A DNA stretch of 64,000 nt. Source: Polytrichum commune. Its lineage: Eukaryota; Streptophyta; Polytrichopsida; Polytrichales; Polytrichaceae. Under the pieces are notes generated by a model. That model saw only the letters and a list, made by a program, of their open reading frames with translations, did no database searches and was not told the origin of the DNA. Of the stretch, positions 15,362 through 32,900 are shown in pieces; positions within the stretch are counted from its first letter, which is position 1, and each line of letters starts with the position of its first letter. The stretch lies in assembly GCA_950295325.1 (NCBI GenBank), contig OX485807.1:24771666-24835665 (forward strand), in the 5' to 3' direction. The position numbers and the translations under genes are program-made.

Positions 15362-15855
15362 TGGGATAATCCCAGGTTGGCATAACTTTCCTGCCTATGA
15401 TTAACTCACTTGCAGCACCAAGTCAAAGTGTATTACACTAACACGCTCAGACGGATTCAACGCGAATCGAACCCGGACCGTATTAATATAACACGCACGT
15501 CCTTATCCAACCAACCTTGGAACCATGACTTGGCGACCAACCATACAACCAACCACCACTTATACTCCAAACAAATACGCACGCTTCTCGTCTCAAACAA
15601 AGTAGCAAGACCCACAAAATTCTAAATTAAAACCCATGCACCCTGCACACCCCCCTTCCCCCCCCCCCCCCCCGGTTCAACCGGTTAAAACATCAGTTAC
15701 TAACATAGTGTCTACTCCCTGCAAAGGGTGAAGTAGTATTACACCCAACGCCGCTACCCTGGGGTACGGCCACGGTTGTCCTACGAACATACACTTTATT
15801 CACTCCGGTTCCTAGTAGGGACCGGAGTTCTTCTTCTTCTTCTGGGATAATCCCA
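15362..15855. mobile_element. Retroposon-like insertion flanked by 13-bp direct repeats
   Basis: TGGGATAATCCCA occurs at 15362-15374 and exactly again at 15843-15855. The enclosed 468 bp ends in a (TTC)n run at its right border, as SINE/LINE tails can. On the minus strand there is a tRNA-type B box, GGTTCGATTC, near 15475, and an A-box-like TGGTTGGATAAGG about 35 bp upstream of it, which suggests tRNA-derived material. The element also contains a poly-C tract at ~15660 and a CTCCGGT...ACCGGAG hairpin at ~15805-15829. The orientation is contradictory (boxes on minus, tail on plus), so the class is unsure. Confidence 0.45.
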
Positions 15856-26925: not shown

Positions 26926-29900
26926 TTAAAAGGGTAAGATGATTGGGCTGCGACTATTGGAATGTAGAGTAAGTGGAGATTCATTCGTTGAGGGCAGAGT
27001 TTGGAGCGCACGTGCTGCCTGCAAGGCCATTTCTGAGTGCAGCTGAACACATGCCATCGCCAACTGCCACAAACAAAAAAATCATCATTTAACGCCACTG
27101 GCAGTAACTTAGCTGGATAAACCCTTTAAAAATATCACATGTATTCGGTTTGAGACTACCTGGATGATTTATGGCATGCGTTCAGTATCTAGAGTTCTCA
27201 CTTCATACATTACATTAGAGCATCAAACACATTAATAGTTTGGTGACTAAAATCCACACTAAAGGCACCTTTACAGTAAGGCCAAGGGCTATGACCAAGA
27301 AATTGTGAGGGCCCTTGAAACTCAACCGAAGGGTTGTGCCATATAAATTTAAAACTGATTTTGTGTGGTCATGGGCCTTCCAGTTAGTGTAAAGATTTGC
27401 AACCAGGCTCTCAATCAAACACTATTTCATTACCATCCTATTCATGTGGGCACTTCTACACAATAAGTTTAAAAAACTGAAGGGTCATGAGGTTTTGAAG
27501 TGTCGTGGTCTCCCAGATTTGTGTTATGTACGACCCACCTCTTTGAGATGGGCTTTACGCACAATTCAGTAGAACATGGAACAATATCCATTGCATGCCA
27601 TGTAGGACTTCATGATGTAGGGATTTCATCCATTGAAACTTCCTTGGTCCCCGGGGTCCTCAAAGCTCTAGGATAAAGTGAAGTGGGATGGTCTTGGCAT
27701 TTTCTACCAATGAGAGATTTTTACATTAATTGGTCACGGCCCCTCAAGCTCTGGTGTGAAGTGCCCCTAAGGTCCCTAAATAAAAAGATAGGTAGTGAAA
27801 TGAAGGGAGGCGAGACATACTGTTGAGCAGTCCCCATCCGGATCATTGTTAGCTATGCCAAGAGCCCACTCTCGAATCCACTCAAGCCCTGTAGCAAGAC
27901 TTGAATCTGTGGCAGTAACGGCAGAGACTACTTGAGAGGGGTGAAGGGAAACAATGACTCGTGATGCTGCATACAATGCTGCCCGTCTCACATACGCCTC
28001 AGGATGATTAGCAACCGCCCTGCCACATGTCCAAGTTGACAATCAATAATATTCAGACTGGCAAATCCTTATCCAAAGTGACCACTTGACAGAACACCAA
28101 CATGTCCAAGTCCAAGGATGTCCGAGGATGTCCGAGGATAGCTCTAGCCTATATGTATATATACATATATGGAACACATGAGCAAACAACTCCTTCGACA
28201 TATATGACTACACAATATAAACAGGAAGAATTGCAGAACCTTGAACATGCCCAAACTGACAATTAATGATATTCAGGCTGGCAAGTTCCTTCACCAATCC
28301 TTTTCCAAAGTGACCATTTGACATAACACCAACAATCAATATGATGTCCACCGCAAATTGCTCTAGCCTATAAATATGGAACACATGAACGAATGACCCC
28401 TTTGACATACCTATACGACTACATAACATACACAGGAAGAATCACAGAACCTTGAAAATGTCAAAACTGATGAATATTCAGGCTGGAAAGTCCCTTGACC
28501 ACTCTTTGCCCAAAGTGGCCACTTGTCATAACATCAACAGTCAATATAGTGTCCACAGGTGGCTCTAGGATGCACATATATATCTCTGTGTGTGTGTGTG
28601 TGTGTGGAACAAATGAGCAAACGACTCTGATACCTACATGACTAGATAATACACAGGACGAATTACAGCACCTTGAACATGTTCAAGTCCCTTGACCAAT
28701 CCTTATCCTAACACCACCAATCAATATAATGTCCATGGATTGCTCTAGCCCATACAAACATATATATATATATATATATATATGAGAAACAGTGAACAAC
28801 TCACAGGACGCATTAGAGAACTTTGTTTTAGTCCAAGCTGACAATAAGTAATATCAGGCTGGCAAATCACTTAGCAAATCCTTATCCAAAGTGACGACCT
28901 GTCATAATACCAACAGTCAACATAATGTCTGCGGATGCTATAGACTATATATACATGGAACACATGCGTGTACAACTCCTTTGATGCACCTATACGACAA
29001 CATAATGTACCCACACAGGGAGAATTAGCGAACCTTGAACGGAGCAATTCCAGCAAACCTGCTCCTAACACAGGTGCTTCTGGCTGAGCTGTGATGCACT
29101 CCATGCAGACTCCAAGAGTGTACAATATCTTCCCGAGAACTATGAATCCTGAATCCAAGAAATCAACACCATGTGACCTTTTGTCGTAGTCACGCATGAT
29201 TGGGAGCATAAATGCAGCTGCAACAGGAGCAAACAGGTTCTCTCCTTTGCCTGCTAGTATATTATGTGAGCCGGTAGTCTGCTGTCCTGGAAAGCTTTGT
29301 TTCTGTTCTCGTAGAGCCATAGCCCGAGGAGCCCACGTTCTGGATTTTCCTGGTCGCCGATCGCCTTTCCGTAAAGGAAGGACTCGTTCATAGCGATGTG
29401 CCCAGCCCAACATAGAACCACCTCCTGGCATAAGGGCGGGTACTTCCGACCATGGGGTTGAGCCTGCAGGAGCTTGATAATTCCCTGGTCCATACCAGGG
29501 AGCTCCTTGTGAAGAAGAACCTCCTGCAAGCTCTGTGATAAGTCCTCCTTGCTGTGGGAGCCGATGATTCCTTTCTCTAGCAACAGTTTTTCCAGCCAGT
29601 TCCTGTGCAGCATCTGGTAGAAAATGCTCCCAACGTAATGAGCAGAAGAGAAGGGAGAGAGTTTGAGAACAACCAGCTAATTTCCTAAATCTTCCAAAGC
29701 GAACTGGTTTTCTTTAGTAGTCTATTGGTTATGCTTTGAGGAAAATACAAAATATTCTCTTTATTCTTTGAAAGTAGTCAGCTTTTGGCCAAGGTTCGGA
29801 GCTTTCATCCCATTTCAATTGATTGACTAGTAACTACACTAAATAGTCCTATTAGTGTAGGCCCTAGTAATTCTCTAGAACCAACATTGATTCCCATAAT

Positions 29901-32900
29901 GAGAATTCATGCGGGCCATGATAAGTTGCAACCCACGTAGGCTCTCTAGTTTAAAATTTGTGTGGGCCACATTAATTGATCTTCTAGGAAAATGATGTGG
30001 GTGACTATTTTATGTTATGCTATTTTTGCCCTTGAACTAATACTGAAACTAATACTGAAGGAGTTGGTTGGAAGTCTCTAGGAAGACTTAGGGAAGACCC
30101 AAGCCCACATTATTTCCACCCACACTAATAGGACTATTTAGTGTACACTTCTTTGTCTAATTAGTGTGAGTTAGACATTCAAAGTTACATGTTTCTATAA
30201 CTTTTTCTCAACATTGTCGTTTTTTACCAACTACATTTTATCAAATTTTTTGGTGTGGATACTACCTACACCAAATATAATATTTAGTGTCATATGGAAT
30301 ATTATATCACTATGGTAACTTTTCGGATGACACTTCTTATGAACAAGTTAACAAATATTGTCATGGATAATGGATGAGTTCATCCATTGGCCAAAACCCT
30401 ACCTCCTCTTGTCAGCAACTTGTGATGAAATATTGTCATGGATGATTGAAATTTGGATGAAAAATCTCTTGATAAGTGACAATAATCGCAACACTGTAAA
30501 TCTATAGCCCCCCCCCCCCCAAAATGTACAGAGGAATGACAAATAATGTGGAATTAACATTCAGTGTTGGTGACACTAAACCGCGGTTTACAATTAGTAT
30601 TGAGCAAGAAATTAGAATTGGTGACACTAAATATCATATTTAGTGTACTTATGTTATTTGGGTAGAAATTGATACTCTTGGTAAAATGTTAATATAATGC
30701 GTAACTCTAAATGGTAACCCACACTAATTAGACAAAAAGGTGTAGTTGTCGGTTCTCCCTGTTCCTAGGATGGCATGGAAAAGGGCATGTCCAGAGGAAC
30801 AGTTTCCTCAAACTTGCAATCTGCTTCTGAACTTCCAACTCAGCTCCACTTTTAGAGCGTGCCCACCAGACTGGCGCATTTTCTTGCTACCAATGGCTTT
30901 GTAAGGTATGACTGCTCACTGACAAATGCATAGTTTGGTTTGAGTGACGAGCTTAATATACCTGACATTGAATCAAGGAGCAGAAGGCGCTGGCTAATAT
31001 CGATGTGCGCAGAGAAGATTTCTGTAGTGATGATCACCACAGAGCTAAGAGGAGCGCACACAAGCAGAGCCACAAGTGCCCCATGTCGCCTTTTGTCAAG
31101 TGCGTCTTCTTCATCCTCGACTGCAATGGAGCTAACCCTCACATGTACAAGAGCACGCACAAGCTCCTCTGCTGCATTATCAAGCTCTACAGGAGCTGCT
31201 CTAATCAGTTCTTCTGCAACTTTTAAGGCCCTTTCAACCTGCACAAATGGGAGGCAATCAAATAGAATCACTGCACTAAAAACTGGTGGGGATTGGTGAT
31301 TGACACATTTCCAAGAAAAAAAGATGACTCCAATGTTGCCACCAGCGTGACTTATGGTGTTGCTTCATTTTCAAGTTGGTCTATGTCTATGTAATCTCGA
31401 AACGGGCATCACAAGAATTAGATGGACCCTAAAGACTACTGCCTCCTTCCAAACTGAACACCTTTTAATGGGTGTGGATAAGTTGGCCTACACCTATCTC
31501 TCCCAAGGTCAAGCCCCTAGGTTCCCACATCGTTGGGTAAGAATATCCGGTTCACCCAGAGACTCCCACTATGATTGGGTGGATCATAGGTGATAGGGTG
31601 CACCAGAAATTATGGGCCAAGAAGGTCACCCATCCAAGTACTATTCCAGCCTTAGGTGGCTTAACCTCGGAGTTGCCATGGGACCTGGGTTAAGGCCTTG
31701 GGTTTGAGCCACCCACACATTTCAGTCATCTACTTCAATTTCTCCAATTTTTAGTAAGGTTGATTCTTTCAGCATGTTTTGAGGCCCTTTCAACCTGCAC
31801 AAATTGGATGCAATAAGGTAGAACTACTACATTACCAACTGGTGTGGGGATTGTTGCGATCAACACATTTCAGACATCATTTTCCAGTTTTGCAAATTTT
31901 TCCTAAGGAGATGGAAGGCTACATACTGCATCAGGGTCATCTGGTTTGAGCAATGCTGTTGCGCAGTCTCTCAATTGTGAGGGAAGCTTGCGTTTCTCCA
32001 ACTCAGAGTCATCATCTGACATGTCGTAAGGCTGTAAGGAGCCCATGCTATCAGTATCACTATCATTGTCACTACTCAAATCCCCGGTGCTCTTTTCACC
32101 ATCTCCCAACCATTCGCCACTTTCTTCACCAAGATTAATAATAGCATCAGGATCGTCATCTTCTAAACACTTTTGTTCATGTCGTTCTCTCCTCTGGCGT
32201 CGTCTCTCCTGTTTTTCTGCATCTGACTTAAGAAAAAGGATGTTAGGTATGTGGGTCTATAATGGACACTTCCAACTCCAGATATACTTTAGGCTGTTGG
32301 ATGGGAACACAAATCCTCTCATCCACTTAGCAAATGTGAAACATGAAGATTGTCGCTTCAAGTGTCAAAATCATAGTTGACATGCAAAAGCTATAAATGG
32401 TCAATGTGAAGATTCTTCTTTCTCTATAGGTGATCACATAGGACCTTCCGATTATGCTAATTACTGAACCTAGAATGGTGTCCTCATTTTGAACACATAG
32501 TCCAATCTCATTGTAACATGTGTCTCTTTGGTGTCCGTTCTTAAATACAAACCTTGGCTTATACCACCCAAAATAAAGGCGTCTGCATAAGACTAGTGCT
32601 GAACTTTAGGCCCGCATACCTTTAATGCATAAATCAACTAGGAGTCCCAACTAAATGCAGGAGGTCTAACGGCAGACAGATAATGAGATCTAAAGATTTC
32701 TTATTCAGATCAGATTTCCTTGAGTTGTGTAATTGCAGTTGTGTATTGCAAGTTCTGTCCTTGTCAAGCATGACATACACAATTAGATACAAAAGACATT
32801 CTGGGAAATACACAATCAGTTATCTCTGGACTATCTGTTTGCAACTTGAATTTCAGATGCACCTAAATAAACATTATGTTAGTAAGAAAATACACTGATT

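Follow-up and report, generated by a model that had tools for sequence, protein, structure and literature searches.

Within the window, by which we mean the whole 64,000-nucleotide stretch of moss DNA analysed here, a 403-nt insertion is read on the minus strand from position 31714 to position 31312, with an exact 9-bp duplication (TSD) on both sides. The host gene is TEL2/TELO2 on the basis of its Pfam matches (PF10193 and PF25320), which agrees with the assignment made from the letters in a preliminary description of this DNA. An open frame of 280 codons on the minus strand at 28871-29713 has zero Pfam matches. The insertion and the features related to it in the window are:

31312 to 31714, minus strand: whole SINE copy of the family that we call family A (genome-wide copies with matching borders; exact TSD; paralogous empty site)
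31715 to 31723, minus strand: 5' copy of the TSD, GAAATGTGT (sequence)
31303 to 31311, minus strand: 3' copy of the TSD, GAAATGTGT (sequence)
31596 to 31714, minus strand: head derived from 5S rRNA, from GGGTG to GGTGCACCC (score of 89 to the genome's own 5S; RF00001 at 17 bits)
31346 to 31595, minus strand: body, common to all full-length copies (alignment of 30 copies; no Rfam match)
31312 to 31345, minus strand: 3' hairpin (ACGCTGGTGGCAACATTGGAGT) and T-rich tail (hairpin fold; comparison with LINE 3' ends)
31777 to 31908, minus strand: paralogous empty site, where the intron/exon boundary recurs in tandem and the insertion is lacking (alignment score of 137 versus 39)
15375 to 15843, plus strand: 5'-truncated LINE copy of the L091 family, with a 3' end like the SINE tail (94% identity to the L091 3' end; TSD TGGGATAATCCCA)

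The duplicated 9-mer reads ACACATTTC on the plus strand. When the two flanks of the insertion are joined and aligned with positions 31777-31908, the score is 137, the best of 200 shuffles reaching 39. This duplicate adjoins the SINE copy, just upstream in the direction of the TEL2 gene, and it contains a single GAAATGTGT and lacks the insertion. The claim that 403 bp were inserted here and that 9 bp were duplicated exactly is thus borne out both by the sequence itself and by the empty site. The tandemly duplicated boundary (31777-31908 compared with 31240-31311 and its flank) may also place a pseudo-exon beside the true TEL2 exon.

Local alignment of the head with the genome's own 5S, a reference derived from dispersed copies of which several have a TATA-like upstream element, gives a score of 89 for the window copy (best of 1000 dinucleotide shuffles, 35) and of 96 for the 404-nt family A consensus (shuffle maximum, 32). 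The Rfam model RF00001 covers positions 1-120 of the window head at 17 bits under a lowered threshold, the gathering value being 38, and a default Rfam scan of the window gives zero matches because the head has diverged. Within the internal control region, the stretch GAATAGTACTYGGATGGGTGACC is retained in the window copy. The consensus has GGCCGGAATAGTACT in common with the 5S of this genome and not with the flowering-plant sequence, and the control-region element GGATGGGTGACCT is retained. The earlier view that the first 119 nt represent a whole 5S rRNA with its internal control region therefore stands as a full-length relationship (89 versus 35), albeit a diverged one.

The 5S complement of this assembly is itself unusual. 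A canonical flowering-plant 5S query finds 28 places at 73-84% identity, and the genome's own 5S is at best 82-84% identical to that of flowering plants. A 5S core pattern occurs at only 17 places across the assembly, and this search finds no canonical 5S array. These 5S copies (L031-L046 and the core-pattern places) are few and dispersed, form no tandem array in the assembly, and are unusually diverged from flowering-plant 5S; the rDNA array may be linked or missing. Six further 5S-like stretches, several of them in tandem pairs, resemble the P5SM (plant 5S mimic) of a TFIIIA gene, as judged by eye from flanking zinc-finger exons (L078, L081, L083, L085, L086 and L087).

Pseudogenes of 5S rRNA are generally common in genomes, and the window copy scores only weakly against Rfam, as might be expected if the head were a unique 5S pseudogene lying beside an unrelated repeat. 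That reading is already contradicted, and we regard it as hardly credible, given that hundreds of dispersed copies carry head, body and tail together with independent flanks and duplications. In the 408-Mb assembly, family A is dispersed over all seven large contigs. Searching with the DNA of the window copy yielded 2253 candidates, of which 41 places were scored, and the scored copies other than the window's own are 79-83% identical to it. A head pattern gives 315 genome matches, a tail pattern with at most two mismatches gives 531, and the exact head followed at limited spacing by the exact tail gives 50; each of the three reversed-pattern controls gives 0. We roughly estimate the family at 1500-3500 copies, assuming a tail divergence of 15-20%.

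The 30 copies that we oriented and aligned mostly begin with GGGTGGCTTAAACCC and finish with a (TTTC)n-type repeat that differs in length between copies. For 11 of the 30, the flanking duplication scores at least 8, compared with 2.3% of shuffled flank pairs, and the convincing ones are about 7-14 bp long. The genome search proposed in the preliminary description has returned copies in which the 119-nt head, the body and the borders recur, with duplications in this range. Mean non-CpG divergence from the consensus is 10% in these 30 copies, so the sampled copies are old; the sample was picked for similarity to the window copy, and the value is not a family-wide age. A TTTT stretch near position 160-190, which could end RNA polymerase III transcription early, is present in 21 of the 30.

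Because Cassandra is the known mobile carrier of 5S sequence in plants (PMC10853983), and a 5S is present here too, we considered whether the 403 nt might be a solo LTR from a TRIM resembling Cassandra or Ajax, in which the 5S would lie inside the LTR. We consider this very improbable. In Cassandra the 5S lies within LTRs, whereas in family A there is no LTR, the 5S comes first and begins exactly at the border of the unit, and the duplications vary (about 7-14 bp, and 9 bp in the window) instead of measuring 5 bp. Ends of the TG...CA type are absent from the 30 aligned copies, in which the borders GGGTG...(TTTC)n directly abut the duplications, and neither LTR-like pairs at a fixed distance nor two-LTR copies with a primer-binding site and polypurine tract between them were seen among the family A places listed. 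The distinction from Cassandra that had been drawn in advance on the basis of ends, duplication length and paired LTRs holds for these copies, and neither extension into LTRs nor confinement to a unique pseudogene, either of which had been named as refuting the proposal, was found. What the two elements have in common is that each is a mobile plant element bearing 5S. Dispersed head-body-tail units with a fixed 5' end and variable duplications instead argue for the original proposal of a true 5S-headed SINE.

The body that follows the head is, as first described, a separate segment; it is common to the full-length copies, and an Rfam search with it gives zero matches. At its 3' end family A reads ATAATTCACGCCGGTGGCAACATCGGAGTC(A/G)TC(TTTC)n, that is, a hairpin and a pyrimidine repeat. 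Variation of the hairpin within the family is mostly CpG decay and for this reason offers no covariation proof of the fold. The 3' end had been described as T-rich, which would make its partner LINE unusual. The first part is correct in that the end is a hairpin and pyrimidine repeat of LINE type, but T-richness alone is not odd, since the plant SINEs Au and p-SINE also have T-rich 3' ends (PMC3747384).

Candidate partners for this tail were found by way of another 5S copy in the genome, the 3' part of which has a relative at positions 15727-15832 of the window. A search with this 3' piece gives 40 places, and in 17 of them a PF14529 endonuclease lies upstream on the same strand at a distance of 3.3-7.2 kb (6.1-6.5 kb in most), compared with 0 in the opposite, control direction. 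One LINE copy that we fetched, L091 (ORF at G000:C2:51458150-51464960), has a single open frame that runs to 2060 aa or more and includes endonuclease (PF14529), reverse transcriptase (PF00078) and RNase H (PF00075) domains, and a PCIF1_WW match. The latter (PF12237, E = 1.4e-9; ORF residues 1301-1416) is unexpected for a LINE and sits between the reverse transcriptase and RNase H. A KPD...E motif noticed by eye at the C terminus, where Pfam has no match, may represent a second, restriction-like endonuclease, and the layout would make L091 Dualen/RandI-like, on the basis of its domains and not of a tree. The truncated copy of this family at 15375-15843 of the window is flanked by the 13-bp duplication TGGGATAATCCCA. 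We also note an antisense tRNA-like stretch (GCGAATCGAACCCGGACC) in the 3' UTR of L091-type LINEs.

The LINEs of this genome with a hairpin and pyrimidine repeat at the 3' end carry ORFs of about 2000 aa with the order endonuclease, reverse transcriptase, RNase H. Among the 3' regions of eight more LINEs, those of L092, L096, L097 and L098 have the succession ATTCAC, hairpin, pyrimidine repeat, which also ends L091 and the other 5S elements. Local alignment of the family A tail with these five LINE 3' ends gives p = 0.002-0.012 for each, with no closely matching long tail. By intersection of coordinates, the exact tail of family A is found on none of the LINEs, and the 100 tail places listed have no PF14529 upstream. 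On the shared layout and these p-values against all five LINEs, a tie between family A and the Dualen/RandI-like LINE type is likely but not proven.

Family A is not the only 5S-bearing element in the genome. The RF00001 search reveals other 5S copies with different 3' parts in the same hairpin-pyrimidine layout, and at least seven are fused to LINE-like tails. Local alignment divides them between two LINE groups, L067, L070, L073 and L077 matching the first and L071, L074 and L076 the second (p < 0.002 for the best pair of each). L073 and L077 have part of their LINE tail in common, and L067/L068 may be one duplicated locus. Duplications around L070, L073, L074, L076 and L041/L067 score 8-12, and those of L071 and L077 are weaker; in the control, 5 of 56 mismatched pairs also reach 8. 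L076 occurs at one place only, and the 5S junction of L073 is likewise spanned at a single place, its LINE-like part recurring widely without 5S. Given these unique junctions and the flanking duplications, L073 and L076 each appear to record one event, the fusion of 5S RNA with the 3' end of a LINE by a LINE reverse transcriptase, which suggests how 5S SINEs arise.

L071 (G000:C2:11360823-11360941, minus strand) is about 480 nt long and combines a 5S with a tRNA-like unit, which has motifs resembling A and B boxes, and with a hairpin tail of LINE type; it is possibly a 5S-tRNA double-headed SINE. A relationship between its tRNA-like body and the body of family A was dropped, the score being 34 against a null maximum of 32.

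Taken jointly, the evidence is best explained if family A is a moss SINE of the SINE3 type, with a 5S head, that RNA polymerase III transcribes and a Dualen/RandI-like LINE moves, and we hold this explanation with considerable confidence. Within it, we infer the transcription by RNA polymerase III, the recognition of the hairpin, the target-primed reverse transcription and the exact LINE that serves family A. RNA polymerase III would initiate at the 5S-like +1 (GGGTG) by way of the internal 5S control region, and the resulting RNA would carry the body and then a 3' hairpin and pyrimidine repeat that mimic the 3' ends of Dualen/RandI-like LINEs. The LINE reverse transcriptase would bind the hairpin and prime on nicked target DNA, giving rise to a duplication of 7-14 bp. 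Family A itself probably originated when a LINE reverse transcriptase fused 5S rRNA to an element with such a 3' end.

Alternatively, the LINE that moved this 5S-headed SINE might be another one, such as an L1-type LINE, or one that is now extinct, the likeness to Dualen-like hairpins being convergent. The age of the copies (10% non-CpG divergence), the modest similarity of the tail (p = 0.002-0.012) and the fact that the exact family A tail is found in no LINE all fit this idea, but we think it unlikely in view of the ATTCAC-hairpin-pyrimidine layout that L091, L092, L096, L097 and L098 have in common with the other 5S elements.

Vertebrates and some insects are the reported hosts of SINE3 elements, whose partner LINEs are of the CR1, I or RTE type (PMC7245038, PMC3747384); zebrafish SINE3, AmnSINE1, OS-SINE1, Ped-1, HaSE3 and SINE3-1_TC are examples. 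Family A resembles them in its 5' 5S head with an internal RNA polymerase III control region, its body, its LINE-like 3' end and its variable TSDs, and differs in its moss host and in the Dualen/RandI-like hairpin and pyrimidine repeat of its tail. It belongs to the SINE3 kind, in a lineage where this was unexpected, and its partner is likely to be unusual. Among the SINEX elements of Chlamydomonas, SINEX-1, -2, -4 and -5/6 have 3' ends of RandI/Dualen type (PMC3747384), which the family A end resembles, and SINEX-2 has a (CTTT)n repeat (PMC3747384); unlike family A, their heads are tRNA-derived or of unknown derivation, and their host is a green alga. SINEs related to 5S have also been reported outside animals, in the fungus Aspergillus fumigatus (PMC5063351), and family A is similar in having a non-animal host. 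The 5S/L1 and U6/L1 chimeras of mammals are single insertions of a small RNA and a LINE 3' part with duplications of 7-17 bp (PMC13174262), and in this respect L073 and L076 are like them. The mammalian 5S/L1 chimeras, however, are mostly antisense and truncated, whereas in the moss fusions the 5S is in sense orientation and in most cases complete, and family A, unlike the chimeras, has been amplified.

A recent review describes the SINEs of land plants as derived from tRNA and assigns their LINEs to L1 or RTE, Dualen-type LINEs not being listed for this group (PMC9033089). In the openly accessible literature, covered mostly through titles and abstracts, we find no 5S SINE described from a land plant. 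To that extent the literature matches the initial remark that the class was unfamiliar from plants, although priority is not certain; the plant host presumed there is a moss and not a flowering plant. Light-harvesting (LHC) proteins encoded by this genome have their best matches among Physcomitrium patens chains (structures 7xqp, 8htu and 7ksq), one of these being an Lhcb9 chain at 380 bits, against 239 for the next ordinary single LHC chain, and Lhcb9 is typical of mosses. A moss 5S-headed SINE with a Dualen-like tail would bring the 5S class into land plants. It would also provide the type of element invoked in a proposed origin of Cassandra, in which a free-standing 5S SINE was inserted into an LTR (PMC10886601). 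The occurrence of low-copy 5S-LINE fusions together with a large family makes SINE birth by RNA-template fusion testable within one genome. We give even chances to the broader reading that the whole birth path of 5S SINEs is preserved in this genome, from single-copy 5S fusions to the 3' ends of two LINE groups, through the 5S and tRNA-like L071, to one kind amplified to more than 1000 copies, by way of hairpin recognition by dual-endonuclease (Dualen-type) LINEs, and that land plants would have in family A their first SINE with a 5S head and also their first to be driven by a Dualen LINE. Elsewhere in the assembly, 14 LHC genes with identical Pfam scores form a large tandem array of about 95 kb (G000:C5:1751760-1846160).
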